Source of the DNA: a virus
Strand: one strand, 5' to 3'
Virus record (IMG/VR): IMGVR_UViG_3300035633_000426
Location: 1 to 30,084 of that record
Length of the DNA stretch: 30,084 bases
The notes beneath the pieces are model-generated. The model had not been told where the DNA came from. It worked only from the letters and a program-made list of their open reading frames with translations, and made no database searches. Positions 204 to 30,084 of this stretch are shown piece by piece. Position 1 is the stretch's first letter; every line of letters begins with the position of its first letter. Made by a program: the position numbers and the translations under genes.

Positions 204-254
204 TCCAGTTTGGGTACTACCTGGGCTTGGCTATAAACATATGGCCCATACTAC
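188..254. repeat. Right arm of 67-bp inverted repeat
   Basis: This is the reverse complement of bases 1-67. The arm spans the 3' end of intron A (188-203), the capsid micro-exon (204-227) and the 5' end of intron B (228-254). If the repeat were transcribed as drawn, its RNA would bury the splice sites on both sides of the 24-nt exon. Confidence 0.9.
204..227 (+). CDS. Major capsid protein, 24-nt micro-exon
   Basis: This exon of eight codons' length lies between introns A and B. It begins with the last two bases of a codon and encodes QFGYYLG plus the first base of the next codon (Tyr after splicing). The 5' splice site of intron B is set by pairing GGGCU (223-227) with the guide GGCCC (243-247), which leaves the expected U-G pair at the cleavage site. 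Joining 204-227, 959-998 and 1253-2042 gives one open frame that reads QFGYYLG-YMAQNFIEGIG and on into the capsid body. The N-terminal coding part upstream lies outside the window. Confidence 0.75.
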
Positions 255-958
255 AGAGACGTAGTATTGAAAATTTGACTATAACGCTGGGAACTCCCGC
301 TAAGTGGTCATTACTACTAAGGTGAAAATATGACTAATATGGGACAATCAGGTGGCAAGACTTTATTTGACTTAGGATGGTTGATCGGAGCCATTGACAG
401 TGATGGAAGTTATGTGTTGTCTAAACAACATCATCATAAAAATAAGACGTTATATCTTTTTCCATCAATAGAAATAACCAATGACAGTGAAGGATTTATA
501 TTAAACTGCGATAGAGTCATTAAAGAGTGGTTTAAAGTAGGCGCTTATATAAGTCCTAAACCCCGTAAAAACGGAAAGCTTGAATACAAAATTTCGTTGG
601 GGGGAATGAAGAGGCTTCATAAAGCACTTCCTGTTTTAGCGGCTAATGAGGTTGCAAAGAAAAAGCAGGCTAAACTATTGTTAGAGTATGTCAATAACAG
701 AATGACTGTCAATAGAGGAACTCCGGTAACCGATAGGGACATTGAAATAGCAATTTCTTTACGAAGTTTGAATGGCAGTAAAGACGTTATAACTATGGAT
801 ATTCCTAAGAGATTAAAATAAAGTAAGCCCCAACGACTATACGTCAAACGCCGATAAGGCGATGATATAGTCTGAACTCACTGGAGACAGTGAGAGGGAA
901 CGCCGAAGAGCTTCCCCGCCTAACGGGTAAAGCCGAGGTCATTACAAGTAACAGGATG
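228..958 (+). ncRNA. Group I intron B, with LAGLIDADG ORF
   Basis: This 731-nt group I intron lies in the capsid gene. P1 pairs exon GGGCU with GGCCC. P10 pairs the 3' exon ATATG with CATAT, just 5' of the guide, which fixes both splice sites. A P2 hairpin follows (ATACTAC/GTAGTAT, 248-267). The P element is near 281-305, a modified Q element at 343-356, R at 827-844 and S at 861-877. The endonuclease ORF (330-821) starts before Q and fills the region between Q and R, that is the P6 loop. The 3' domain is almost identical to those of introns C and D. Confidence 0.88.
330..821 (+). CDS. Intron-encoded LAGLIDADG homing endonuclease (intron B)
   Basis: This is a 163-residue protein with a single LAGLIDADG motif, WLIGAIDSDGSY at residues 17-28, whose acidic residues would bind the catalytic metal. 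One-motif members of this family act as homodimers that cut an intronless allele of the target gene and so drive intron homing. The start ATG has a fair ribosome binding site (AAGGTG, seven bases upstream). The first dozen codons overlap the Q element of the ribozyme core, so translation and RNA folding share sequence. The ORF ends six bases before the R element. The frame is intact and nothing suggests decay. The cleavage site is presumably the B insertion site in the capsid gene; that is inference. Confidence 0.85.
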   Translation: MTNMGQSGGKTLFDLGWLIGAIDSDGSYVLSKQHHHKNKTLYLFPSIEITNDSEGFILNCDRVIKEWFKVGAYISPKPRKNGKLEYKISLGGMKRLHKALPVLAANEVAKKKQAKLLLEYVNNRMTVNRGTPVTDRDIEIAISLRSLNGSKDVITMDIPKRLK

Positions 959-998
959 ATATGGCCCAGAACTTTATCGAAGGTATAGGAGAAGAGGT
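959..998 (+). CDS. Major capsid protein, 40-nt micro-exon
   Basis: This exon lies between introns B and C. It starts with the last two bases of a Tyr codon and encodes MAQNFIEGIGEE plus the first two bases of a Val codon. It follows the 3' end of intron B (TAACAGGATG). It ends in AAGAGGU, which pairs with GCCUCUU of intron C with U-G at the cut. The frame continues into YVPTFAINAS at 1253. The ATG at 961 looks like a start codon but is internal: both junctions keep the frame open. Confidence 0.8.
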
Positions 999-1252
999 TA
1001 GCTAAAATAAATAGGCCTCTTAATCTTGCTATATGCTGGAAAGCCCTTAGAGCTTTGTTTACTGACATGGTAAAAATAACAAAGATTGGGTAATCAGCAG
1101 GAAACTTTTTTAAGACTCCTCAACGACTATACGCCAGACTCCCTGCATTGGGATGATGATATAGTCTGAACTCACAGGAAACTGTGAGAGGGAATGCCGA
1201 AGAGCTTCCCCGCCTAACGGGTAAAGCCGAGGTCATTACAAGTAACAGAATG
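999..1252 (+). ncRNA. Group I intron C, no ORF
   Basis: This is a compact 254-nt group I intron. P1 pairs exon AAGAGGU (992-998) with GCCUCUU (1015-1021). P10 pairs the 3' exon CUAU (1253-1256) with AUAG (1011-1014), directly 5' of the guide. The P element ATATGCTGGAAAGCCC starts at 1031, Q (GGTAATCAGCAGGAAAC) at about 1089-1105, R (CCTCAACGACTATACGCC) at 1118-1135 and S (GATGATATAGTCTGAAC) at 1155-1171. It carries no reading frame of note. Its 3' domain nearly duplicates that of intron B and of intron D in the tail gene. Confidence 0.9.
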
Positions 1253-2042
1253 CTATGTTCCTACCTTCGCTATTAACGCTTCTGCAGATTGGAAAGTGAC
1301 GTACGCTAGAGATTCGAGGATTGACATTGCTCAAAGAGCTGCTGCTAGAGTTGCAAAGGACATTGCCAATTATGAGGAAGAATGCGGTTGGAAGATCATC
1401 ATGCCGGCCGCGACGTCTGCTTTTTCTGGAAAGGGACTGTTGGGTTCACGTCCAGCTCCTATTTATGAGATTGATCCGGCGTCAACTGGTGCTGGTTACC
1501 TTTCTAAGGAACTTATAAATAAGATGTTGGTAGGTTTCAAGAGAATTGGCAGGACTTTGACAGATCTTTACATAGCTCCTGAAGACGCTGCAGACATTAG
1601 AGAGTGGACTGACACGGACATTGATCCTGTGACCAGGAGAGAGATTTTTCAGGCTTCTGGAATGGGTTCCATTTGGAACGTGCAGCTTCATGAGGTGCAA
1701 CATTTGGGAGCAACCGGCATGTACAACATCAATGCCAGCACCGCTGCTTTTGGCAAGTTCATAGCCGACGCAGGCGAAGTTTACAACAACTACACTCTTG
1801 ACAATCCTAACGTAACGTCCGCTGACGGAACAGTCAGTTCGTTGGGGGAAACTCAGATACTTGGTTTTGACATGAGCGTAAATGATTCTCTTGTAATGCC
1901 CATCAGAAAAGAATATGAAGCTATTGATGATCCAGCATTGCTTCGTCAACAAAAACAAGGCTTCTTTGGATGGGCAGAAATAGGATTTGCGTGCCTTGAC
2001 TCAAGAATGCTCGGGATGGGCGTTATTGATAGAAGCTTATAA
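1253..2042 (+). CDS. Major capsid protein, main 3' exon
   Basis: This is the large terminal exon (about 263 codons) of the major capsid protein, which builds the head shell. Upstream exons at 204-227 and 959-998 join in frame. Recognisable stretches are LTDLYIAPEDAADIREW, IDPVTRREIF and FGWAEIGFACLDSRMLGMGV, a pattern seen in HK97-fold phage capsid proteins. The reading frame extends back to 1253 with no start codon, so the GTG at 1296 is not the true start. The visible spliced length is about 283 residues, and the N-terminal part is missing. It is followed by a perfect stem-loop and then a homing endonuclease. Family assignment is by recognition of conserved segments, without a search. Confidence 0.8.
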
Positions 2043-2107: not shown

Positions 2108-3496
2108 GTGCTTAAAAAGAAAAGGTGTGAGAGGTGCAACTTGGTTTTCATCCCCACGTCTGGAAATCAAAAACGCTGCTCAACCTGTGGGGATTTGCTT
2201 GCAAAGGAACGTGAGAGGAATCGCAGCAGAGCAAGAAACAACTTTAGAAAACGAGTTAGAGAGTGTTTGGTTTGCGGGAGAGAGTTCAGCACTTATTACA
2301 AAAACAAAACGCATTGCGGATCTGAAGAATGTGAAAAAGAGAGAAGAAAGCTGAATTCTGAGAACGCAGAAAGAAAAAGATCTTTAACGAGGAAAAAGGA
2401 CAGGGCTAGGAAAAGAATTTTTAACAGGGCCAATAAAATAAAGGAAATGAAAAAGCACGTTGAAAGGTTTGGTTACAAAACGCTTTCCGCCAAGGAGTTT
2501 AAAAATTGCCACAACGGTCGCGTTCTCTTGGAGTGCCCAAAAGGTCATGAGTACTGTGTCACTTATCATGGGTTCAAAGACAACGGAAACAGGTGTTTGA
2601 GATGTTTCCTTGGCAACGATTTCGTTTCGCGGCCCGAACGAAAAATGCGAGATTTCATAGAAAGGGACTTGCGAAACGTGAACGTGATTTACAACGATCG
2701 TTCAATCATAGCTCCAAAAGAATTGGACGTTTATTTTCATGATTTAAAGGTGGCGGTGGAAGTGTGCGGTTTGTATTGGCACGGGGAAGCTTCATCGGGT
2801 AAAAACAAATTTTACCATTATGACAAAATGAAAGAATGCGCGGACAAGGGAGTTCGTTTGATCACGGTTTTTGAGGATGAAGCGTGTGACAAATTTGACA
2901 TAGTGGTTTCTATAATAAAACGCGCTTTGGGTTTGAGTGACAACGAGGCGTTGGCTGGAAATTGTTTCATCAAAACTCTTGATTCAAAGACCGCCAACGA
3001 TTTTTTCAATGAAAATCACGTGAGAGGAGGATCTGATTTCGTGGTTGTTTGGGGTTTGTTTAGCGACGATGAGTTGGTGGCCGCCTTGGGTTTGTCAAAC
3101 CCTGTGAAAAAGCGTTCCAATTTGAACAATGAATTGGAGTTGAAGAGATTTTGCGAAAAGAAAAATTTTACCGTGGTTGGAGGGGCTAGAAAGTTGTTTG
3201 AGGTGGCGAAAGAGCATTGCAAAAATCATGGGATCGGTTGCGTTAAATCTTATTGTGACATGAGATACGACAACTTTTTCTCCACTGATTGTGATTTGTT
3301 GGGTTTTAAACCTGTTGGTTTTACCAAATGCGCTCCTCATTATTTTAAGAACGGAAAAAGAATTAAGAATTTTTTTTTGAATGAGAATAAAGAAGAGAGA
3401 GAATTGAATGAAATTGAGTTTGAATCGCTGGTCGGACAAGGGTATGATCGGGTGTGGGACGCCGGTCATAGAACTTATTTATATAACTTTATATAG
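2108..3496 (+). CDS. Free-standing homing endonuclease, Vsr-like (EDxHD type), zinc-finger N-terminus
   Basis: This 462-residue protein has three cysteine clusters at its N-terminus: C7/C10/C24/C27, C53/C56/C70/C75 and a CPxGHE-type finger at C143/H147/C163/C166. A very basic stretch lies around residues 78-118. The nuclease part at about 175-275 shows ELDVYF (205-210), E218-x-x-GLYWH225 and VFEDE (254-258), the pattern of Vsr-fold phage homing endonucleases such as I-Bth0305I. A conserved C-terminal domain follows (NENHVRGG, ELKRFCEKK, VVGGARKLF). It starts with GTG after AAAAGGACAACC. It shares its whole second half with the protein at 19752. It sits directly behind the intron-rich capsid gene, so a DNA target in that gene is likely but unproven. 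Confidence 0.82.
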   Translation: MLKKKRCERCNLVFIPTSGNQKRCSTCGDLLAKERERNRSRARNNFRKRVRECLVCGREFSTYYKNKTHCGSEECEKERRKLNSENAERKRSLTRKKDRARKRIFNRANKIKEMKKHVERFGYKTLSAKEFKNCHNGRVLLECPKGHEYCVTYHGFKDNGNRCLRCFLGNDFVSRPERKMRDFIERDLRNVNVIYNDRSIIAPKELDVYFHDLKVAVEVCGLYWHGEASSGKNKFYHYDKMKECADKGVRLITVFEDEACDKFDIVVSIIKRALGLSDNEALAGNCFIKTLDSKTANDFFNENHVRGGSDFVVVWGLFSDDELVAALGLSNPVKKRSNLNNELELKRFCEKKNFTVVGGARKLFEVAKEHCKNHGIGCVKSYCDMRYDNFFSTDCDLLGFKPVGFTKCAPHYFKNGKRIKNFFLNENKEERELNEIEFESLVGQGYDRVWDAGHRTYLYNFI

Positions 3497-4315: not shown

Positions 4316-6889
4316 ATGCCTTCGTTTGATTATAATCCGTTTACCAGAAAACTGGACATGGTCGGAGCCGCGACGTCGTCTGGAGTGAACGATCACCCAA
4401 GAAAACACCACATAGACGGGGTCGTCGATCATTACGGGGTTGCTGGGGCGACAGAAGACAACTTTGTTTCGTTTGATTCAAACGGCCTTCCAAAAGATTC
4501 TGGGTATTCACACTCAGACCTTTCTTCTTATTGGGACAGAACCGGCACGACCCTAACTCCAAAAAACGCCAATGACAACATAGATTACGGAGCCGGAACC
4601 ATTTCTGGAACCGGTGACATTTATTGTGATGAGTTGTTCACTTCTGGCGGAAGCGCGCACGTCGGAGATTCCGTCATAGCCAGCAGTTCCAGGGGACAAG
4701 TCATTGTGAACAGGATGACTTGCAGACAGGACGACTACACCCTAAGATCCAATTTTGGAAATTCTTGGACTGCCAGAGACAGCTCCAGGTTCTGGAACGG
4801 GGTGGCCATGACGTCTGACGGAGTCACTCAAGTGGCTTGCGTTAGCAATTCCGTGTTGTACAAATCGACCGACTCTGGAAAGACTTGGTCGACTCTCACG
4901 GTTGCGGCGTTGCAGTGGTACTCTTTGGCGATGTCGGCTGACGGCAGGGTCATTGCTGGGACTGTGGTGGGCGGTCAAACGCAAGTGTCCGTGGATCATG
5001 GAGAGACTTTCGTTGGTTACGGTCCAGTCCTTGGGGTTCCTTACGGGATGGCAATGTCTTCAAGCGGTAGAAGAATGGCTGTTTTCAATGGTTTGGGGCA
5101 CATTTACGTTTCCAATGACTTCGGGCAAACTTGGAACCACACAGGTCCGTCTGAGGCTTGGTATGGAATTTGGATGTCAGCTTCCGGGGATTACGTCACC
5201 GCTGGCGCCTTCGGAGGTAAATTGTACGTTTCAAGCGACGGAGGACAATCTTGGTCAGCAAAAGACTCCGACAGAAACTGGAAACCGGTTGGCATGTCAG
5301 ACGACGGTTCCATTCAAGCTGCGGCGGTGTGGGGAGGCAACATATACGTTTCCACTGATTATGGCGAGAATTGGTCAGCGAAAGGCGAAAGTCGTCAGTG
5401 GAACGATTTGAAGTTGTCTTACGACGGAAAAATTCAAATCGCTTGCGCGGCCACTGGTGAAGTCAGCGTGTCAGAGGATTATGGAGACAATTGGTCTGAC
5501 GTGACGGCTCCAGGAGAAGTCCTTTCGTTTTTGGCAACCACTCCCACTTTTTCCAAAATAACCGGAACTTCTTGGAACAAGCAAATTTACACGTCATATT
5601 CAGACGTTGACGTTGAAAACGACGTGAATTTTGAAGGCAGCGTCGTCATAACCAACAATTTGACAATAGACAGCAACTCCGTAGATGAGTTTTCCACTGA
5701 CGGAGCTTTTACAGACAATTCCGATTCCGCCATACCAACAGAAAAGGCTGTCAAGACTTACGTTGACACAACTGTCAGCGGAGCTGCAGGAGCTTCGGCA
5801 CACGCAGATCTCACCGGTCTTGACGCTGACGATCACACTCAGTACTTCATAACAACTGGAGCAAGGCCGGCGGAATACGTCAATATAGCGGGCAACGTGG
5901 ATGACTCTCCAATTACAAAAGAAGGTTTGCAACTGCGCGTTTCTGCGGCCAATTTAACTGACAACTTCACTCCCGGTCTTAGAGACAAAGGATCTGCCAC
6001 TTCGTTCGGGATTCCCACCATGATTGGTGACAATTCCATTACAATAACTGACGCTTGCACGGTTTACATTGATGGATCACCAACCGCTGGAGCCAACATG
6101 TCGATCACCAATCCTTGGGCTTTTTACGTGAACGCGGGAGATTCATATTTTGGCGGGGCGCTGTCAGTGAATGGGGATTTGGATTTAAATGACAACAACG
6201 TTGAAGACGTAAACGGAATGTTCACGAAGTACAACGCTGTGTTGGTCAGCAACGACACTGGATCCACTCTTGAGAGAGGGACTCCTGTTTACGTCAACGG
6301 TCTTGTTGGAACCGTTCCATCAGTGGCCGCTTGCGACAACACGGATTGTGACAAGATGCCGTGCATTGGCTTGGTGAGAGCTAACATAGCAAACGGCGAC
6401 GACGGATACGTGGTGCGCTTTGGAAGATTGTTTATGGACACTTCTTCGTTTTCTGGATCTCCTTTGGGAAGCAGAGTTTATGTGACCAGCAGTGGCACTT
6501 TGACCACGGTGGAGCCCACTTTTGGGAGCGTTCAGCGCATTGGGATGTTTACAAAATTAGGATCTGGTACCACCGGAAGGGTGTTCATAAGTTCAAGAGG
6601 AAGGGAAAGCATATTTTCCGCTGAAGCGGAGCACCCAATTCTGAGAATGGGTCTTGATGACGGTCACAGAAAAATATCTTTCTGTGATTATTACAACAAT
6701 GAAGTCGCTTCCATAGACGATGAAGGAAATTTAACCATATCTGGCTCAATGAGTGGTTTATACGTTGACTATGAACCAACTCCGACTTCTTCTGGAGTTC
6801 AAGGTCAGAAGTATTTTGGCTCTGGGTATTTGTATGAGTGCGTAGACACCAACACGTGGGTAAGGCACGCGGTGGCCACTTCTTGGTAA
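4316..6889 (+). CDS. Virion fibre/adhesin with Asp-box beta-propeller
   Basis: This is an 857-residue protein. A fibre-like N-terminus contains WDRTGTTLTP and ISGTGDIYCDELFTSGG. Residues about 140-415 then form a repeat array with six Asp boxes (STDSGKTW, SVDHGETF, SNDFGQTW, SSDGGQSW, STDYGENW, SEDYGDNW) spaced near 40 residues, the signature of sialidase or sortilin-type beta-propellers. It continues with fibre motifs (AIPTEKAVKTYVD, HADLTGLDADDHTQY), a beta-rich domain starting ERGTPVYVNG and a C-terminal module (ILRMGLDDGHRK onward). Asp boxes are structural turns and do not show catalysis. The ribosome binding site GGGAGGAG precedes the ATG. It probably binds a surface glycan or mucin; whether it sits on head or tail is open. 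Confidence 0.75.
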   Translation: MPSFDYNPFTRKLDMVGAATSSGVNDHPRKHHIDGVVDHYGVAGATEDNFVSFDSNGLPKDSGYSHSDLSSYWDRTGTTLTPKNANDNIDYGAGTISGTGDIYCDELFTSGGSAHVGDSVIASSSRGQVIVNRMTCRQDDYTLRSNFGNSWTARDSSRFWNGVAMTSDGVTQVACVSNSVLYKSTDSGKTWSTLTVAALQWYSLAMSADGRVIAGTVVGGQTQVSVDHGETFVGYGPVLGVPYGMAMSSSGRRMAVFNGLGHIYVSNDFGQTWNHTGPSEAWYGIWMSASGDYVTAGAFGGKLYVSSDGGQSWSAKDSDRNWKPVGMSDDGSIQAAAVWGGNIYVSTDYGENWSAKGESRQWNDLKLSYDGKIQIACAATGEVSVSEDYGDNWSDVTAPGEVLSFLATTPTFSKITGTSWNKQIYTSYSDVDVENDVNFEGSVVITNNLTIDSNSVDEFSTDGAFTDNSDSAIPTEKAVKTYVDTTVSGAAGASAHADLTGLDADDHTQYFITTGARPAEYVNIAGNVDDSPITKEGLQLRVSAANLTDNFTPGLRDKGSATSFGIPTMIGDNSITITDACTVYIDGSPTAGANMSITNPWAFYVNAGDSYFGGALSVNGDLDLNDNNVEDVNGMFTKYNAVLVSNDTGSTLERGTPVYVNGLVGTVPSVAACDNTDCDKMPCIGLVRANIANGDDGYVVRFGRLFMDTSSFSGSPLGSRVYVTSSGTLTTVEPTFGSVQRIGMFTKLGSGTTGRVFISSRGRESIFSAEAEHPILRMGLDDGHRKISFCDYYNNEVASIDDEGNLTISGSMSGLYVDYEPTPTSSGVQGQKYFGSGYLYECVDTNTWVRHAVATSW

Positions 6890-11229: not shown

Positions 11230-11625
11230 ATGTTTGGTTTTTGGAAAAATAGGCATGAAGAAGAAGAATTTGAAATAGGAAGGGACGAAGCTTGGTTTGC
11301 CAATCGTAAAAGAGAGTATGATGAGGGTCAGTATGAGGGTATGGAAGTTAAGAGAAGAGACAGAACTCACATTGACTCTGTGTTGGCTCAGAAGGCTGAA
11401 AGTGACCAGGCCAAGGACGCCATTGCCATTCAGGCTTTGCAGCTTGCTGTTGAGACGGCAAACATGGTGGCCAAACAGTCTATTAGACATACAGATGTAG
11501 CGTCGGACAGGAAATTTAACGTTGAAGAGCAGGATCTGATTGTTGAAGAAATTTTGAAGGACGAACAAGCCAAAACTGCTCTTGCTAAAATTGTCGCTGA
11601 ATTTGTTCGAGGTGAAATAAAATAA
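11230..11625 (+). CDS. Small helical protein, first of a tandem paralogous pair
   Basis: This 131-residue, highly charged, mostly helical protein has the strong site AAGGAGGT upstream. It shares with the next gene, in the same order, the segments RDEAWFANRKREYDE, RDRTH, ETANMVAKQSIRH and a C-terminal VEEILKDE. The N-terminus carries an extra MFGFWKNRHEEEEF. I do not recognise the family. A small oligomeric virion protein or fibre-associated factor fits the location. Confidence 0.75.
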   Translation: MFGFWKNRHEEEEFEIGRDEAWFANRKREYDEGQYEGMEVKRRDRTHIDSVLAQKAESDQAKDAIAIQALQLAVETANMVAKQSIRHTDVASDRKFNVEEQDLIVEEILKDEQAKTALAKIVAEFVRGEIK

Positions 11626-11646
11626 ATTATAAGGGGGTAATTGACA

Positions 11647-12009
11647 ATGGAAAGATCGTTTGAGGTGGGCAAAGACGAGGCTTGGTTTGCCAACATCAAG
11701 AGAACTTATGACGAGTATCAGCAGGAAAGTCTTGAAAGCATTAAAAGGAACAGAACTCATGTAGACAAGATTCTTGTGGACGCTCAGCAAGACACTGAGG
11801 TGAAGAGAAATCTCATCAATCAGTGCATGCAGAACGCCATAGAGACCTCAAACATGGTTGCAAAACAGGCGGTTAGACATGGGGATCTCGCCATAGACAG
11901 ACAATGGAACATTGATGAGCAGAGTTACGTTGTGGCTGAAATTCTGAGGGATGAAGTGTTCAAAGAGGCTATGGCCGCGGCAGTGACTAAGTACGTTCAC
12001 AAAGAATAA
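11647..12009 (+). CDS. Small helical protein, second of a tandem paralogous pair
   Basis: This 120-residue paralogue of the preceding gene shares KDEAWFANIKRTYDEYQ, KRNRTHVDKI, ETSNMVAKQAVRH and VAEILRDE. I start it at the ATG at 11647 rather than the in-frame TTG at 11641, because AGGGGGT (11632-11638) lies at the right distance and the ATG aligns with the family start. Fifteen or so bases separate the pair. Divergence is large enough that both copies are probably functional and specialised. Confidence 0.75.
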   Translation: MERSFEVGKDEAWFANIKRTYDEYQQESLESIKRNRTHVDKILVDAQQDTEVKRNLINQCMQNAIETSNMVAKQAVRHGDLAIDRQWNIDEQSYVVAEILRDEVFKEAMAAAVTKYVHKE

Positions 12010-19751: not shown

Positions 19752-21359
19752 ATGGGCAGAAGACGTACGGTAGAAGATGTGAGGAAGTACATAGAAGACG
19801 AAGGTTACGTTTTAATCGACAAAGAATACTGTAACGCTCGAGCTAAGTTGACTTTAATTTGTCCAAATGGACATGAATGCAAAATTAGTTTTGACAAATG
19901 GATGGCTGGAAGAAGATGTTTGTGCGAATCTGGAAAGAACAGGCTCGACATTGTTTTTATTGAGAGAGAGTTTTCAAAGCGCGGCTATAAATTATTGTCA
20001 AAAAATTACAAAAACAGGAAGAAGTTGGTTTACCTTTGTCCAAATGGGCATAAACACTCCATACGATGGGATCATTTTAAAAGAGGGCACGGATGCCCAT
20101 ATTGTGCCGGAAAGCCAGTCATTGATTTGGATTCAGTTAAAAATTCTTTCGCGAAAGAGGGTTATGAGTTGTTGGACAGACGGTATGTCAACAGTTCCAA
20201 AAAATTGAATTACGTTTGTCCTAATGGACACGAACACAGCGTTAGTTGGAGAAATTGGAACGCAGGGCACAGATGTCCAGAGTGCTCCCCAAACATGAAG
20301 AAAGACATTGAATTCATTGGAAAGGAATTGTCCAAAGAAGGTTATTCATTAATGTCTTCAGAATACTCCAATCACAATCAAAAACTGCATGCGGTTTGTC
20401 CAAACGGACACGACTGTTTTGTTACTTGGAACAATTGGAGCAACAACAATTCTCGTTGCGTTGAATGCACTGAGTGGGGTTCTTCTTGTCAGGAGAGAGA
20501 GATCATAGAATTTTTAAAACTGGATTGTGGACGTGAGATTATAGAGCGTGACAGGAATTTGATAAAACCATACGAGCTTGACGTTGTGATTCCAGAGTCA
20601 AATCTTGCAATAGAATATTGTGGGTTGTATTGGCATTCGGATCGGGCGGGCAAAAACAAAACATATCACCTGGACAAATTGAATTTGTGTAATTCAGTTG
20701 GGTACAGATTGATAACCGTGTTTGAAGACGAATGGGTTTTCAACAAAAAAGTGGTCAAATCAAGATTGAGGAAATTGTTGAACGTGGAAAAAGGCGAGAA
20801 AGTGCTCGCAGAAAAGTGTCATGTAGAGGAAATAACTGACGGAGTTGCTGAAAAGTTTTGCAACGACAATCATTTGCAAGGATATGGAATCAACGCCGCC
20901 GTAAAAATCGGTTTGTTCCATGAAAATGAGTTGGTCAGCGCAATGACTTTTTCAAAACAGACCATGGAAAATGAGACGGATTTTGATAGAAAGCTTGATT
21001 GGAAGCTCCACAGGTTTTGTTCAAAAACAAATTTCATGGTTGTTGGAGGAGCTTACAAGTTGTTGAAACATTTTGAAAACAATTACAAATGGAGGCGCGT
21101 GCGAAGTTACGTTGACAGACGATGGTCGTCAGGAGACGAACACGACAAGTTGAATTTTTTGTTAGTTGGTTTTACCGGACCGAATTGTTGGTACGTCAAG
21201 AACCAAAAAAGGGTTCGCTGGCTTAATTTTAGAAAAAAAGAAGACGGTTCGGTTTGTTTGGATGAGTGGGGAATTAAAAAGTCCCAGGGTTGGTCAAGAA
21301 TTTGGGACTGTGGAAACGCGAAATTTGACAAGACAAACAATAAACTAACCTCTTTATAA
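19752..21359 (+). CDS. Free-standing homing endonuclease, Vsr-like (EDxHD type), with four zinc-finger repeats
   Basis: This 535-residue protein has four tandem repeats of about 57 residues in its first 240. Each has a helix, EGYxLLxxxYxN, CPNGHE/K and a closing C-x-C or CxxC (about 8-60, 66-118, 125-178, 185-239). These are treble-clef-like fingers that probably read DNA. The nuclease part has ELDVVI (275-280), E288-x-x-GLYWH295 and VFEDEW (323-328). The C-terminal domain (CNDNHLQGYG, LHRFCSKTNFMVVGGAYKLL) matches that of the protein at 2108. The ribosome binding site is GGGAAGGAAG. It lies 159 bases upstream of the intron-bearing tail gene, a likely target by position. Confidence 0.82.
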   Translation: MGRRRTVEDVRKYIEDEGYVLIDKEYCNARAKLTLICPNGHECKISFDKWMAGRRCLCESGKNRLDIVFIEREFSKRGYKLLSKNYKNRKKLVYLCPNGHKHSIRWDHFKRGHGCPYCAGKPVIDLDSVKNSFAKEGYELLDRRYVNSSKKLNYVCPNGHEHSVSWRNWNAGHRCPECSPNMKKDIEFIGKELSKEGYSLMSSEYSNHNQKLHAVCPNGHDCFVTWNNWSNNNSRCVECTEWGSSCQEREIIEFLKLDCGREIIERDRNLIKPYELDVVIPESNLAIEYCGLYWHSDRAGKNKTYHLDKLNLCNSVGYRLITVFEDEWVFNKKVVKSRLRKLLNVEKGEKVLAEKCHVEEITDGVAEKFCNDNHLQGYGINAAVKIGLFHENELVSAMTFSKQTMENETDFDRKLDWKLHRFCSKTNFMVVGGAYKLLKHFENNYKWRRVRSYVDRRWSSGDEHDKLNFLLVGFTGPNCWYVKNQKRVRWLNFRKKEDGSVCLDEWGIKKSQGWSRIWDCGNAKFDKTNNKLTSL

Positions 21360-21518: not shown

Positions 21519-21628
21519 ATGGCAAGAAATAGAATAATTTATGCCAGCCAGAGTGTGTGGGTTAATGGTGAGGTTCTTTATAGAGTCCAGACACTAGGGT
21601 CCACTACTACATTTACTAGCGAAGACAT
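21519..21628 (+). CDS. Tail tube candidate, exon 1
   Basis: This is the first exon of a 535-residue protein encoded by 21519-21628, 21906-21929, 23019-23039 and 23324-24776. It starts at ATG after TAGGAGG and encodes MARNRIIYASQSVWVNGEVL and on to TFTSED plus two bases of an Ile codon. The 3' end is set by GACAU (21624-21628) pairing with the intron guide GUGUC, which leaves U-G at the cut. Confidence 0.82.
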
Positions 21629-21905
21629 AGTTTAAATGTGTCACCTTTTTGGCAACAAATTGGTAAAAACCTGGCTATATGCTGGAAAACCCTGTTAAGT
21701 TTCTACTACTACCAGAAATGGAGTGATAATGTGGAAAATAAGGGCAATCAGCAGGAAACCTTTAATGGGTTCCTCAACGACTATACGCCAGGCTCCCTAA
21801 ATCGGGATGATGATATAGTCTGAACTCACTGGAAACAGTGAGAGGGAACGCCGAAGAGCTTCCCCGCCTAACAGGTTAAGCTGAGGTTATTAAAGTAACA
21901 GGATG
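21629..21905 (+). ncRNA. Group I intron D, no ORF
   Basis: This is a 277-nt group I intron in the tail tube candidate. P1 is GACAU/GUGUC. P10 pairs the 3' exon ATTTG with TAAAT immediately 5' of the guide. The P element (ATATGCTGGAAAACCC) starts at about 21677, Q (GGCAATCAGCAGGAAAC) at about 21743-21759, R (CCTCAACGACTATACGCC) at 21772-21789 and S (GATGATATAGTCTGAAC) at 21808-21824. The 3' end follows TAACAGGATG. A short open frame inside is incidental. The 3' domain is nearly identical to introns B and C of the capsid gene. Confidence 0.9.
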
Positions 21906-21929
21906 ATTTGAGCTAGGTCACCAGGATAT
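21906..21929 (+). CDS. Tail tube candidate, 24-nt micro-exon 2
   Basis: After one base that completes Ile, this exon encodes FELGHQD and two bases of a second Ile codon. Its end is fixed by AGGAUAU pairing with GUAUCCU of intron E, with U-G at the cut. Both flanking introns interrupt after the second codon base, so the exon is a whole number of codons and its loss would keep the frame. Confidence 0.8.
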
Positions 21930-23018
21930 GAGGTCAAATTGTATCCTCTACTAGGCGACTAGTAGAATAAAAACTTTGCTGTATGCCGGAACATCCAGCT
22001 AAGCTTATACTACTTAACCTACAATAGGAAGTAAAGATGTATAAGATATGGACAATCGGCAGGAAAGAGGTTAAAATGGATAAGAATGAAATTCCAAGTA
22101 AGGAAAGGTTAGAGTCGCTTATGAATGAATTTGGTTCTATGGGAAAGGTTGCTGCTGAGTTATCTAAACCATATGGTACAGTAAGGGCTTGGTTTAATAA
22201 ATATAAGCTGCCTAGACCTGAAAGTAATAGAACTGTATTTCATGAGTTAAGGGAAACTCCGTTCTCAGATATTCAAAGATCTGTTGTGTTAGGTTCTATA
22301 TTGGGTGATGGAGGTCTTCAATTACCTAGAAGGGGAAAAAATGCTAAACTACATATAAAGCATTGTGTGAGACAACTTCCATATTTAAAATGGAAGAAGA
22401 AGTTGTTAGATCCTTTTAGTAGAAAAATTTACAAGACCTCTGAAGATGAAGAACATGTTATAAATGGTAGTAAATTTCATAGTACTAGCACATATGTTTG
22501 TTACACAATATGCCACCCAGACATTACTGATTTTTTTTATAAATATTATTGTAGTGGAAAAAAAGGGATTATTGAAGAGGTAATAGATGAGTTAAATTTA
22601 TTATCTTTAGCAATATGGGTAGCTGATGATGGATCTTTTTATTCTGATAAAAAATGGACTAACTCTATTGGAGGAAAAATCTGTACTAATAGTTTTAGTT
22701 ATCAAGAACAAGAGTTTTTAAAAGATGCTTTAAGTAAGTTTTTTTGTGGAAGAATAAATATAATGCCTTATAGATGTAATGGACGAAACGAACACGTTTT
22801 AAAACTTACTGGAAGTGATTGTTTGAGAGATTTTCTTTCTATGATAAGGAATGTGTTACCAGAATGTATCCATTTTAAACTTGATCCTCAACGACTACAC
22901 GCAAAGCTCTCTAAATAAATTTAGAGATGATGATATAGTCTGAACTACATGGAGACATGTAGAGGTTGCTTCGCAGCAACCCGCCTGAAATTATTCAGGT
23001 CATGAAAGTAACAGATTG
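21930..23018 (+). ncRNA. Group I intron E, with LAGLIDADG ORF
   Basis: This is a 1089-nt group I intron. P1 is AGGAUAU/GUAUCCU, followed by a P2 hairpin (CTACTAG/CTAGTAG, about 21948-21966). The P element (GTATGCCGGAACATCC) starts at 21981, Q (GACAATCGGCAGGAA) at 22051-22065, R (CCTCAACGACTACACGC) at 22886-22902 and S (GATGATATAGTCTGAAC) at 22927-22943. The 3' end follows TAACAGATTG. The ORF at 22076-22918 lies in the P6 loop and its last codons run through R and P8. The 3' domain groups with introns A and F. Confidence 0.88.
22076..22918 (+). CDS. Intron-encoded two-motif LAGLIDADG homing endonuclease (intron E)
   Basis: This is a 280-residue protein. A helix-turn-helix-like N-terminus (GKVAAELSKPYGTVRAWFNKY, 23-43) is followed by two LAGLIDADG motifs, VVLGSILGDGG (70-80) and LAIWVADDGSF (178-188). 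Two-motif forms act as monomers on an asymmetric site. I start it at the ATG at 22076, after AGGAAAGAGG. The upstream in-frame ATG at 22037 would translate the Q element. The C-terminal residues DPQRLHAKLSK are encoded by the ribozyme R and P8 sequences. The frame is intact, so recent activity is plausible. AT-rich codon use differs from the flanking exons. Confidence 0.87.
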   Translation: MDKNEIPSKERLESLMNEFGSMGKVAAELSKPYGTVRAWFNKYKLPRPESNRTVFHELRETPFSDIQRSVVLGSILGDGGLQLPRRGKNAKLHIKHCVRQLPYLKWKKKLLDPFSRKIYKTSEDEEHVINGSKFHSTSTYVCYTICHPDITDFFYKYYCSGKKGIIEEVIDELNLLSLAIWVADDGSFYSDKKWTNSIGGKICTNSFSYQEQEFLKDALSKFFCGRINIMPYRCNGRNEHVLKLTGSDCLRDFLSMIRNVLPECIHFKLDPQRLHAKLSK

Positions 23019-23039
23019 AATCGACGTTGTAGATGATGT
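23019..23039 (+). CDS. Tail tube candidate, 21-nt micro-exon 3
   Basis: After one base that completes Ile, this exon encodes IDVVDD and two bases of a Val codon. It ends in GAUGU, which pairs with GCAUC of intron F with U-G at the cut. It is the smallest exon in the window. Spliced protein reads FELGHQDIIDVVDDVPAV across three junctions, an unbroken and sensible sequence. Confidence 0.8.
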
Positions 23040-23323
23040 CAATTAAAGGCATCCTCGTTAGGTAACTAACGTGTAAAATTCCACGATATGCTGGAAACTC
23101 CCGTTAAGCTTTTACTACTACCAGAAATGGAGTAATAATGTAAAAGATAGGGACAATCAGCAGGGAGGAAGTTAATAAACTTCACCCTCAGAGACTGGGT
23201 GTGGAACCCCTTTAAAAATAAAGGGTGATGGTACAGTCCGAACTGTATGGAGACATACAGAGGCTATTTCGCAATAGCCCGCCTAAAGAAAAGAAATCTT
23301 AGGTCATAAAAGTAACAGATTTG
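23040..23323 (+). ncRNA. Group I intron F, no ORF
   Basis: This is a 284-nt group I intron. P1 is GAUGU/GCAUC, and P2 is a CGTTAG/CTAACG hairpin (about 23056-23071). The P element (GATATGCTGGAAACTCCC) starts at about 23085, Q (GGACAATCAGCAGGGAGG) at 23151-23168, R (CCTCAGAGACTGGGTG) at 23186-23201 and S (GGTACAGTCCGAAC) at 23230-23243. The 3' end is placed after TAACAGATTTG because only that G gives the right frame. This ending has one extra base compared with the other introns, and P10 is weak. The 3' domain matches introns A and E. Confidence 0.85.
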
Positions 23324-24776
23324 CCCTGCCGTCGCGGTGACATTGAATACTAACGAATTTGGTGACGTAAAAAGTTTTGCCGTTCTATCGCAAGTAAGAC
23401 CAGATCGAAGAACCATGGACACTACTGCTAGTGGTAGCAACGCGAACTTGGTTGTGGTAAGTGGAACTAATTTAACCCCTACCAGCACTTATCTTCACGG
23501 TGCGTCTTTGGCTGATTTCGCCATTGTTTGTGGCAATTTGCCAGGAGTAACTATTTGGGCTCCAGTTCAAGACGAGTGTTCTCTTGGAACTCTGGACAAC
23601 AACATTGATCAGACCTTGTTCATGGACGAGGTGTTCATCAATAGTGTTGAATTTAGTTACACCACCGGAGCTAACGCCACTGAGAACTACGCTGGTGAGA
23701 CAGACAACAAGATGTGGCTGTTGAATGACGGTAGGTTTGTCAATTATGACTCTTACACTCTTACTGGCGCGGATGTGGCTAATGGTTACGTTGATTTAAC
23801 GCTGGCCATTACTTACACCATTCCAACGCTGTCAACTGGCAAGCGAGGTTTTCTTAGAAAAGATTCTGATGGATTGCCTGCCGCCACTTGGTTTGATTTG
23901 ACGCGAAATGAGATGGTGAATGTTAAAGTAGAGACAGGTGCCGGCGGAGCCGCTGATCAGTTTACCTATTCTGCACCTGGAGCGCAGCACAGACTTCATT
24001 TGCCCACTTCTGTGGAAGGCATTTCTCTTGCTGCTGGAGATATAATCCAGGTGGTTTACTGCGCTGACGGTTACGGTACTGGAACGTCCAATGCGTATTT
24101 TACCGCCCTTGACGACGTTGACAGGCCGGACACCATTGGTGCCATTAGACAGGGTCAAGTTGAAGCGTACATTGTTGGTCCTACTGACGCTTCTTGGGAC
24201 ATTGCTTGGAGATTGACGGGAGTCACAATTACTTGTGATTTGACCCGTGAGGCCTTGCTTGAGTTGGGTCACTTGTCTCCTTATGATAGACCGCTTACCT
24301 TGCCTATACCCATAACCGTAACTGTGGATTCCACAATGGGCGACCTTGAAAACTGGTCTAGGGTTGCCAACCAACTTACAGCGTACAACGCCGACACTTT
24401 GGATGACATTGATTTGGCTGATTTGATGACTGCTGAAGACAATAAGTTGGTTGTTAAGGTGTACGCGCAGACTGATGAAGAAGCAGGTGGAACTGGAGAC
24501 AGCAGAACGCTTCACACCAACACTGATTTGATTGGTCAGAGTTATTTTCTTGATGGGGTGAAGGGCACTTACGCTTCTGCCGGTGAGACGGAGCACGCTC
24601 TTAAAACAATCATCGTGGAGCATTTGAAGATCACTGATGAAGGTGCTACGTTGGATTTGGGTACTAACATGACCCAGACCTTTGGGTTTAGATCAACCAA
24701 CGATTTGTACGTTGTTAAGGGAGATCTTACCATTGGTAACATCACTGGAGATTTTAAAGTTAGAAGGAACGCCTAA
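23324..24776 (+). CDS. Tail tube candidate, main 3' exon
   Basis: This exon of about 483 codons completes the 535-residue product. The frame runs open back to 23324 without a start, so the GTG at 23337 is internal. The protein is beta-rich throughout (AVAVTLNTNEFGDVKSF, VEAYIVGPTDASWDIAWRL, HALKTIIVEHLKITDEG) with no coiled coil, as expected for a tail tube or related virion protein. Gene order supports the call: it follows terminator and neck candidates and precedes chaperone and tape measure candidates. A different major virion protein cannot be excluded. A strong stem-loop follows the stop. Confidence 0.65.
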
Positions 24777-27043: not shown

Positions 27044-30000
27044 TTGGCTGATCATAACGTTTACTTTAAAGACGGAGCTACCACAAACAAACCTACCGGC
27101 GGCGGCGAGTCGCCTATTTCTGTCCAAAGACTTAGTAAAGCTCTTCAAGAAGCCCTGTCTAAGCTTTTTGACGCGTCAAAGCTTAGCAAAGCCATAGCAA
27201 ACGAACTGGGTAAAACCGTAAGTTCTATAAACGCTGTGATTTCTAGAGAAGACATCAACAGGTTGTCTAGAGGGCTCGCAGACGAATTTTCAAAAAAAGC
27301 AATTCAATCCATAATTAAATCAGCTCCTGCTCCAGGACAAAAATTTTCAGACAAAGCCATAGTCAGTTCTCTATCTGATTTGAACAGATCCATAGAGAGA
27401 TCTATAAAGGATTTGAGTAAAAAGATGGAGAAATCCACTGGGATTGGTTTAAGTGACAAGGAAATAAATGAATTGTCGAGAGCCGTGTCTGGATCTATAG
27501 AAAGGGTTTTGCCAAAATCTTTGGACAAGGTAACGAGGGACATGGCCCAAAGCACGTCCACCGTTGTTTCCATAGCCAGAAACATGGTTGCTTTGACCAA
27601 CTCCATGAAAAAGATTAGAACTAGCGGTGGGGGAGTGGACGTTAAGGAACTTGGTCCCCTTTTTACTAATTTAAAAAGCCTAATATCTGAATTCAAAAGA
27701 CTTCCAGGTGAAATTAAACAAGCGAGAGATTCCGCTAAAGAGGCCACAAGGGAACAGAAGGAAATATATAGAGAGTTGTCAAAAGCTCTAACTGACGTTA
27801 AGAAAGCCATGACAGAAAGGGTTTCTGGCGTTAGACAGACGGTCGCAGAAGATCCTCAGCGTTTCATTAAATTGTTGGCTAAAGAGTTGCATGCAGCAAT
27901 AAAAGAAGCGTCTTCTTTGAAAGGGACTCAATTGGAAAAGGTTGTTGCCGGTTTGGAAAAAAAGCCAACAAACGTCACTGATTTAACTAAAGTCATAAAA
28001 GATTTACAAAAAGAAATCAAAACTCAAACCAAGTCTGGGGAAGTAGAAATTTCGGGGATGGATAATTTTACCAAGAGAATAGAGGTTCTTAATTCTAGTT
28101 TGAAAAACCTTCCCAAGCCAATTGAAGGAGAGGCTAAGTCGTTTAAGGACTTGGATTTATTTATAAAGAAGTTAGATTTGTTTACAAAAGAATTGTCTGA
28201 CGTTTCAGTGAAGGTTGACGTTGATGTCAAAGGCATAGAAAGAGCAGTTGGGGACAGTTTGGAAAAAGGATTTAAAGATCTTGATTCTAAAATGAAAAAG
28301 CTTTCCATATTGGATCCTAAGGTGTTCAAAAGCAAACTGCTGTATCAAAGCCATTCTCAGTTCGGAAGGGAGCCTATTTCCGGTCACTCTCTTTTAGCTC
28401 GTCCTGGAGTTTTTGAGTCTTACAAAAAGGCAGAAAAGGCGTTTGGGGAGAAAGATTTGGAAGCTTTGCGAAAAGCGATGAGCGAACTTGAGTCCAAGGT
28501 TGGGGATTCTGACAAATTAATGGCTAAATTGATTCAAGAGATTAGAGAGTCTGTGGTTCATTTAGAGAATATAAGCAAGCAAGGCTCTCCTAAATACAGC
28601 AAAGAAATAAAACAGATGTCAGATGACATAGACTCTTTTAAGAAAGAAGTTAACGCGGCCGAGAAATCTTTGGAAAACACCAAGAAAGCTGCGGATTCGA
28701 CTGCCAGTTCTTTAAAAAAGATGGACAAGTCTTTAAAAGACTCCCCCTCAAAATTAACGTATGCGGGGGCTTTGGAAAAGTTGTCTGGATTAAGGGAAAG
28801 ATTCAGCATTTATAAGTATCCTGATAAAGCTCTTGGTCCTAAGAAACCTGGGGAGAGGTATGAATTGGAAGTTGAAAAACCGTTGTCCAAGTTTGGGGCA
28901 AAGGCTTTTAAATCCGTGGAGGACAATATAACGGAACTTTCTAATTCTTTGTATAAATTACAAAGAACCATGATTGATAAAATGGAAAAAGAATTAAGTT
29001 CTGGGTGGAAGATAGTCAGAGAAAGTTCAAAACAGCCTATAGAAGAGTATTTTAAATTGGCCTCCGGAGCTAATTTAAAAACAAGTGGAAAACAGTGGTC
29101 GTTTGAAATAGCCGATGTTGCAGGTTTAAGAAGCGTTCTTGGGCAAAAGGCCACTAGAGGGCAGTCCACGGCGGAGTTGGTCAGATTGTTTAAGGAAGAG
29201 AAAAAAGCTGAGAAGCTTCGTCAGGTTAGGGGCCAAGAATTGAGGGTTGAGGAGATAGCAGGGTGGGTCAAAGCAGCACATAAAGAAAACATAGGCAGAA
29301 TATTTGGCAAAGAACGGGCGCAAGAAGTGATTAAGTTGAGACAAAAACACCCAGCGTCTGTTCCAAGCAAAGAAATGGTTAACGAATTGAATAAGATTTT
29401 GAGTGATTCTTATGATGAAATAACAAGGGTGTTTAAGGAAACCATAGGCGAGAAATACGCTTTGGATAAATTAATGGGAGGCAAAGATCCATTATTGAGA
29501 AAAATTGCCATCCCTGCTGCAAGATTGACTAGCACCGGCGCCTCTGTTTTTGAAACCTCCACTGGAAGTCAGAGGGCTTTGCAAAAATTTGTCACTTTTG
29601 AAAGTGGCTTGGAAAAAATGTTCAAAAAGTTGGGAACGTTGACCAAAGATTTTACTGAAGAAGGCACTGTTTCTTTGGCCGCTAAATATGGCGCCGGCAT
29701 CAGAGACGTTGGTTATAGGCCCGATCCCGGAGCCACTAAACAAGCGGAAGATTTGTCAAGAGACATGATAAAGAATATAGTTAAGTTTGGAGGCAGGGAG
29801 TTTGTGGCTAAAGGATACAAGGCGGCCGCCGTGTCTAAAGGCGCTCAATTGGAGAAGGCGGGGATAACTTCTTTAGAGGATTTTAAGAAGGGAGTTGATG
29901 AAGTATATAAGACGTTACAAAACATCGACAACAAATCAATAGATGAGTTTATGAAGAGAATGGCAGAAGCCGGTTTGTCTGCGTATGACGTGGCAAAAGC

Positions 30001-30084
30001 TTTGGATTCTTTGAAATTTGAAAACGTTTATGACGTTTTGGAAAAGGTGATGACTTCATCAACTCCCTTCTTAAAATCCTCTAA
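27044..30084 (+). CDS. Tape measure protein candidate, 5' part
   Basis: This reading frame starts at TTG 27044, nine bases after GGAGG, and stays open for 1013 codons to the window end. It is long and dominated by charged helices and coiled coils (SLSDLNRSIERSIKDLSKKM, EIKQARDSAKEATREQKEIY, IKQMSDDIDSFKKEVNAAEK). I noticed no cysteine, and no membrane segment appears in the visible part. The length and helical character, directly after tube and chaperone candidates, are those of tape measure proteins, which set tail length and help DNA ejection. A globular patch occurs around residues 690-800. The C-terminus is outside the window. Confidence 0.75.
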   Translation, partial: MADHNVYFKDGATTNKPTGGGESPISVQRLSKALQEALSKLFDASKLSKAIANELGKTVSSINAVISREDINRLSRGLADEFSKKAIQSIIKSAPAPGQKFSDKAIVSSLSDLNRSIERSIKDLSKKMEKSTGIGLSDKEINELSRAVSGSIERVLPKSLDKVTRDMAQSTSTVVSIARNMVALTNSMKKIRTSGGGVDVKELGPLFTNLKSLISEFKRLPGEIKQARDSAKEATREQKEIYRELSKALTDVKKAMTERVSGVRQTVAEDPQRFIKLLAKELHAAIKEASSLKGTQLEKVVAGLEKKPTNVTDLTKVIKDLQKEIKTQTKSGEVEISGMDNFTKRIEVLNSSLKNLPKPIEGEAKSFKDLDLFIKKLDLFTKELSDVSVKVDVDVKGIERAVGDSLEKGFKDLDSKMKKLSILDPKVFKSKLLYQSHSQFGREPISGHSLLARPGVFESYKKAEKAFGEKDLEALRKAMSELESKVGDSDKLMAKLIQEIRESVVHLENISKQGSPKYSKEIKQMSDDIDSFKKEVNAAEKSLENTKKAADSTASSLKKMDKSLKDSPSKLTYAGALEKLSGLRERFSIYKYPDKALGPKKPGERYELEVEKPLSKFGAKAFKSVEDNITELSNSLYKLQRTMIDKMEKELSSGWKIVRESSKQPIEEYFKLASGANLKTSGKQWSFEIADVAGLRSVLGQKATRGQSTAELVRLFKEEKKAEKLRQVRGQELRVEEIAGWVKAAHKENIGRIFGKERAQEVIKLRQKHPASVPSKEMVNELNKILSDSYDEITRVFKETIGEKYALDKLMGGKDPLLRKIAIPAARLTSTGASVFETSTGSQRALQKFVTFESGLEKMFKKLGTLTKDFTEEGTVSLAAKYGAGIRDVGYRPDPGATKQAEDLSRDMIKNIVKFGGREFVAKGYKAAAVSKGAQLEKAGITSLEDFKKGVDEVYKTLQNIDNKSIDEFMKRMAEAGLSAYDVAKALDSLKFENVYDVLEKVMTSSTPFLKSS

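Follow-up and report, generated by a model that had tools for sequence, protein, structure and literature searches.

Three putative group I introns crowd a candidate tail-tube gene of an uncultured phage

How can a virion gene be read when two of its exons would be only 24 and 21 nucleotides (nt) long? This question is raised by IMG/VR record IMGVR_UViG_3300035633_000426, a viral stretch of 30,084 nt that we refer to as the window. From its letters alone, the original prediction had proposed that a tail-tube candidate at 21519-24776 is split by three group I introns and that its 535-residue product appears only when four exons are joined. Our analysis agrees with this proposal, and the locus is very probably the major tail-tube gene of a large uncultured tailed phage, cut by three group I introns at neighboring conserved sites.

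Exon map and intron cores of the tail gene

The predicted exon map, including both micro-exons, is correct to the base. Exon 1 (21519..21628, 110 nt) begins just 3′ of an AGGAGG ribosome site and carries codons 1 to 36 and the AT of codon 37. Exon 2 (21906..21929, 24 nt) encodes (I)FELGHQD(I), for which homologs have FELGHLDI, and exon 3 (23019..23039, 21 nt) encodes (I)IDVVDD(V), for which homologs have IIDVVDDV; exon 4 (23324..24776, 1453 nt) supplies the remainder of the protein, from V52 to the stop. All four lie on the plus strand, and joined they make 1608 nt, or 535 amino acids (aa) and a stop codon. Left unspliced, intron 1 ends the frame at codon 39 (TAA, 21633-21635), as had been foreseen for exon 1, and retention of intron 2 or intron 3 singly ends it at codon 53 or 54. 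A GTG-start open reading frame (ORF) of 479 aa is present at 23337-24776, and its GTG falls inside exon 4.

Relatives that lack the introns confirm this map. The spliced protein found 42 loci in IMG/VR, most of which align without interruption from residue 1 to residues 518-535, straight through the junctions across which the original prediction had read an unbroken protein; the residues there are FELGHLDIIDVVDDVPAV in intronless relatives and FELGHQDIIDVVDDVPAV in the spliced protein of the window. At the DNA level, intronless homologs are co-linear with the window across all three junctions, exactly at the predicted points. The N terminus, where the prediction was open to refutation, matches that of the homologs. 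A wider scan with the protein alignment brought in further intronless homologs, with identities as low as about 33%. We also wrote a splice-aware aligner, which takes the intronless consensus as input and allows introns only after T and ending in G; it returned the identical four exons. The micro-exon stretch is among the most conserved parts of the protein.

The three interruptions, all on the plus strand, have the features of group I introns. Intron 1 (site A, 21629..21905, 277 nt) and intron 3 (site D, 23040..23323, 284 nt) contain no ORF and have the conserved catalytic core, scoring 85.4 and 62.1 bits against the Rfam group I model RF00028 (curated cutoff, 50 bits); they share 86% identity over 79 nt. 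Intron 2 (site C, 21930..23018, 1089 nt) holds a LAGLIDADG gene. The predicted P1 pairings, GACAU/GUGUC, AGGAUAU/GUAUCCU, and GAUGU/GCAUC for introns 1 to 3, were all found; in each, a U.G pair marks the 5′ splice site. All three introns end in G. Across 25 family introns, the mean P1 score was 10.9 with the intron's own exon versus 4.9 with site-swapped exons (Mann-Whitney p = 6e-12; these introns are related and hence not fully independent). The P10 pairing is strong in intron 1 only, where it reaches up to 8 base pairs (bp) with ATTTGAGC; in intron 2 it has 3 bp.

The encoded protein is supported as a siphophage-type major tail (tube) protein, tube-like by predicted fold and by position. 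An AlphaFold2 model of the intronless homolog L003 (23 sequences) has a predicted template modeling (pTM) score of 0.78 and a mean predicted local distance difference test (pLDDT) of 73. Its best PDB matches in Foldseek are the tail-tube proteins of DT57C, P74-26, T5, and SH-Ab15497 (E values of 2.2e-6 to 2.2e-5), with modest TM scores for tube entries 8hrg, 8ed0, 9iny, and 8xan (0.41-0.53 by target, 0.29-0.34 by query). On the 3′ side of the tail gene lie family-conserved genes as well as a tape-measure-like ORF (27044..30082, plus strand), which runs off the contig end and was recognized by length, helical composition, and position only. The earlier call of a tail-tube candidate is thus in keeping with both fold and synteny, on which we base the assignment because no sequence family names the protein.

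Several points weigh against this combined reading of protein and introns. The L003 model is of moderate confidence: the first 55 residues are mostly poorly modeled, and residues 22-55, including the micro-exon part, have pLDDT values below 50. The tail protein matches no Pfam or PHROG family and, by sequence, no PDB entry; a search of GenBank phages gave no match to it. Intron 2 scores 44.2 bits (E = 1e-9), under the RF00028 cutoff; an ORF of 882 nt interrupts its core, and the 5′ half of the Rfam model is forced onto this ORF. Intron 3 is almost without P10 (1 bp). We place intron 2 in group I because of its P1 (7 bp, better than in introns 1 and 3), its terminal G, a 3′ end that resembles those of the other introns, and its homologs. 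With this qualification for intron 2, the prediction of three group I introns is supported, and we infer that they are self-splicing.

Insertion sites in relatives and in the capsid gene

The sites occupied in the window belong to a hotspot that is common to relatives of the phage. Within 45 nt of a highly conserved coding stretch, five insertion sites are in use, at coding nt 110 (A), 123 (B), 134 (C), 150 (E), and 155 (D), and occupancy varies: the window phage has introns at A, C, and D; L028, L029, and L030 at A, B, and D; L042 at B and D; L032 at A and E; L025 at A; L041 at C; and L033 and L155 at D. L180 is interrupted at E and then runs off its contig. In L028 the tail gene has exons of 13 and 32 nt. 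The 13-nt exon (L028 6416-6428), ATTCGAGCTTGGT, lies between two group I introns and can form a P10 of 7 bp with intron A and a P1 of 3 bp with intron B. It is also present in L029 and L030, which come, with L028, from three data sets and share the same three-intron layout. L042, a close relative of L028 in the tail tree, has B and D without A, which indicates that the 13-nt exon was made by the gain (or removed by the loss) of one intron. When 57 tail proteins are placed in a tree, intron-bearing rows are nested among intronless ones; the tree requires 7 changes in intron presence, of which the starred branches force at least 5, as would be expected for mobile elements. One locus, L039 (200-1600), was set aside as a probable assembly chimera in which one intron segment is repeated three times.

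The ORF of intron 2 (22037..22918, plus strand) is by family a LAGLIDADG_2 homing endonuclease (PF03161, E = 3.5e-26; phrog_11023, E = 5.5e-15) and is predicted to be active; both acidic motifs, ILGDG and WVADDGS, were found by eye. A start at 22076, which follows an AAAGAGG sequence resembling a ribosome site, is more likely than one at 22037. The end of the ORF overlaps core segments P6′ and P7 of the intron. Introns of relatives at sites A, C, D, and E carry LAGLIDADG ORFs related to this one.

The major capsid gene of the same phage is interrupted in a like manner. The window opens inside this gene (1-2042), which is found at 2383-5747 of L049, a contig of the same phage that is 99.99% identical to the window over 6977 nt. 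In L049 the gene has four introns (1074, 243, 726, and 254 nt), and the exons between them measure 29, 29, and 40 nt. On the plus strand of the window are a 29-nt exon (204..232; L049 3909-3937), an intron (233-958) with a LAGLIDADG-type ORF of 163 aa (330..821; phrog_5046, E = 4e-7), a 40-nt exon (959..998), a 254-nt group I intron (999..1252; RF00028, 74.7 bits; P1 AAGAGGU/GCCUCUU), and the last exon (1253..2042), which weakly matches the major head protein family phrog_2522 (E = 0.0012). The counterpart of the intron ORF in L060 has a weak match, under the cutoff, to PF14528. For the 1074-nt intron (site 183), no Rfam match was found above the cutoff, and its 3′ end is unusual. Relatives' capsid genes use six insertion sites, and L055 (2693-5099) has a 15-nt exon between two introns; a many-exon alignment of the L100 capsid gene proved to be aligner noise. 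One member of this capsid family, L067, distantly matches the major head protein gp27 of Bacillus phage G (23% identity, E = 2e-9).

Introns of the capsid and tail genes share 85-94% identity at their 3′ ends (861-963 and 1155-1257; 21772-21910), a hint that introns within one genome may exchange sequence. A grouping across the two genes in a tree of intron 3′ ends, of the window's intron A with capsid introns 241 and 281, had low support and is not claimed. At the contig start, positions 1-71 and 184-254 form a 71-nt inverted repeat (97%); L049 continues without it, so the repeat looks like an assembly artifact, and bases before about position 63 are not trustworthy.

Proposed origin of the micro-exons and competing explanations

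A simple model would account for this arrangement. The guide of each intron would pair with the last bases of the preceding exon to form P1, with the cut after U, and the next exon would be joined after the terminal G of the intron; three such removals would restore the 535-aa frame. The introns most likely arrived by homing, in which intron-encoded LAGLIDADG endonucleases would cut intronless alleles at conserved coding sites and repair of the cut allele would copy the intron in. An endonuclease gene was either lost from introns A and D or never present in them; C retains its own. The micro-exons would then be what remains between independently homed introns, and their lower size limit is probably set by the room that the P10 of the upstream intron and the P1 of the downstream intron require. 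More tentatively, and with somewhat less than an even chance of being right in all its parts, the 45-nt stretch may be a hotspot of homing where several LAGLIDADG intron lineages stack and so shorten exons to near the physical P10 plus P1 minimum, as in the 13-nt exon of L028, and in which exon skipping that keeps the frame in the window phage could add variants of the tail tube.

Such skipping bears on what the gene makes. Because the three introns share one codon phase, the frame survives the loss of exon 2, of exon 3, or of both, and the products (527, 528, or 520 aa) stay open to the normal stop, so exon-skipped tail proteins could be made beside the full product. There are precedents: orf142 of phage Twort leaves out a 23-nt exon flanked by two introns that resemble each other (PMC10136302), and an exon is skipped in a transcript of phage SIOphi (PMC11878797). 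Introns 1 and 3 of the window are alike, too. However, the residues that would be skipped rank among the most conserved of the protein, and skipping the 13-nt middle exon of L028 breaks the frame, so that frame keeping is not a conserved property. We therefore regard alternative splicing as rather unlikely, with full splicing of the tail gene as the preferred reading.

A second alternative concerns how introns without an ORF reached their sites. The immediate upstream neighbor of the tail gene is a free-standing endonuclease gene (19752..21359, plus strand; phrog_559, E = 2.7e-106; phrog_3339; PF21817; PF18741 below its cutoff), whose product has CapR-type repeats and a weak VSR/MTES_1575-like nuclease domain; another free-standing homing endonuclease gene lies downstream of the capsid gene (2108..3496, plus strand; phrog_559, E = 1.9e-57; phrog_3339, E = 1e-54). 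In collaborative homing, the VSR-like enzyme would cut the intronless tail gene and carry the ORF-less introns along; precedents are known for collaborative homing and for homing endonuclease gene islands (PMC3984707, PMC10448857). Among intron-bearing clusters, 6 of 8 have a relative of the endonuclease gene immediately before the tail gene, versus 4 of 40 among intronless ones (Fisher p = 4e-4), and a like but weaker trend holds at the capsid gene (4/8 versus 8/48, p = 0.055; L100, with too little downstream sequence, was not counted). When relatedness is controlled, however, the trend at the tail gene is not significant (about 2.4 pairs for and 0.2 against, median p = 0.5), and among 16 loci outside the tail-gene count some (L150, L178, and L179) carry the endonuclease gene without introns. 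The tail introns, moreover, have a LAGLIDADG lineage of their own. Since relatedness can explain the association, collaborative homing stays only an idea, and a doubtful one next to homing by the introns' own endonucleases.

The protein could also be a tube-like component other than the main subunit of the tube, such as a terminator or tail-tip ring. The weaker Foldseek matches do include T5 tail-tip chains and tube proteins of contractile systems, but the top matches are main tail-tube subunits, and a position shortly before the tape-measure-like ORF fits a major tail protein, so that we consider this quite improbable. It is barely credible that decay or misassembly has left a pseudogene whose short exons are coincidental: the probable chimera L039 and the inverted repeat at the window's start could suggest it, but a second contig, L001, is 99.99% identical to the window through all three introns, the three data sets behind L028, L029, and L030 share their own three-intron layout, and the 535-codon spliced frame is intact, with conserved residues.

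Among IMG/VR contigs with the tail gene, lengths go up to 545 kb; very large phages therefore belong to the family. Capsid matches in GTDB are four contigs of metagenome-assembled genomes from unrelated phyla, possibly misbinned phage, and we name no host from them. Elsewhere in the window, adjacent ORFs at 11230-11625 and 11641-12009 encode similar proteins and look like tandem duplicates, and the ORF at 4316-6889 has repeated VSTDYGENWSAKG-like units that resemble BNR/sialidase-type repeats, perhaps of a tail fiber.

Known arrangements and what this case adds

A close precedent of the same kind is orf142 of Staphylococcus phage Twort (Landthaler and Shub 1999). According to PMC10136302 and PMC11878797, this tail-tube gene also contains three group I introns, two similar ones of which enclose an exon of 23 nt, and shows exon skipping. 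The likeness described here is one of gene layout and tube role. Twort introns 2 and 3 belong to subgroup IA2, whereas for the window introns IA is unlikely because, judged by eye on the Rfam alignments, the linker from P7 to P3 is short and leaves no room for P7.1/P7.2. The window gene also differs from Twort orf142 in the LAGLIDADG gene of its intron 2, and in its relatives five sites are in use within 45 nt and the shortest exon has 13 nt.

Other phages share single aspects of this layout. The tape-measure gene of phage ICP1 likewise has four exons and three introns, with splicing demonstrated by reverse transcription-PCR (RT-PCR) and an endonuclease encoded in the middle intron; it is a different tail gene, and its endonuclease is of the HNH-3 type (PMC10448857). 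Cluster J mycobacteriophages have group I introns in capsid and tail genes, found through intronless homologs and confirmed by RT-PCR, but in the available part of that report there is one intron per gene and micro-exons are not reported (PMC3706429). The huge gut phages called Jug are also very large and rich in group I introns (about 18 per genome), and metatranscriptomes support the splicing of 37 of 76 introns; the examples there are in terL, nrdD, and polymerase genes, and the endonucleases are mostly HNH (PMC12363816).

New features of this case are the density of insertion sites, with five in 45 nt; a relative that has an exon of 13 nt; the LAGLIDADG lineage; and a capsid gene with a like pattern. 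No shorter exon flanked by two group I introns turned up in a brief search of an incomplete literature collection. If the stacking proposal is true, the 13-nt exon of L028, shorter than the 23-nt phage exon of Twort, would set the lower size for an exon between group I introns, and L042 (B and D) and L028 (A, B, and D) are natural intermediates for the study of stepwise homing and minimum exon size. In this phage family, gene callers would probably miss the N termini of two virion proteins, the tail tube and the capsid. More broadly, the case illustrates how densely a single essential gene can be occupied by group I introns and, presumably, still be expressed.

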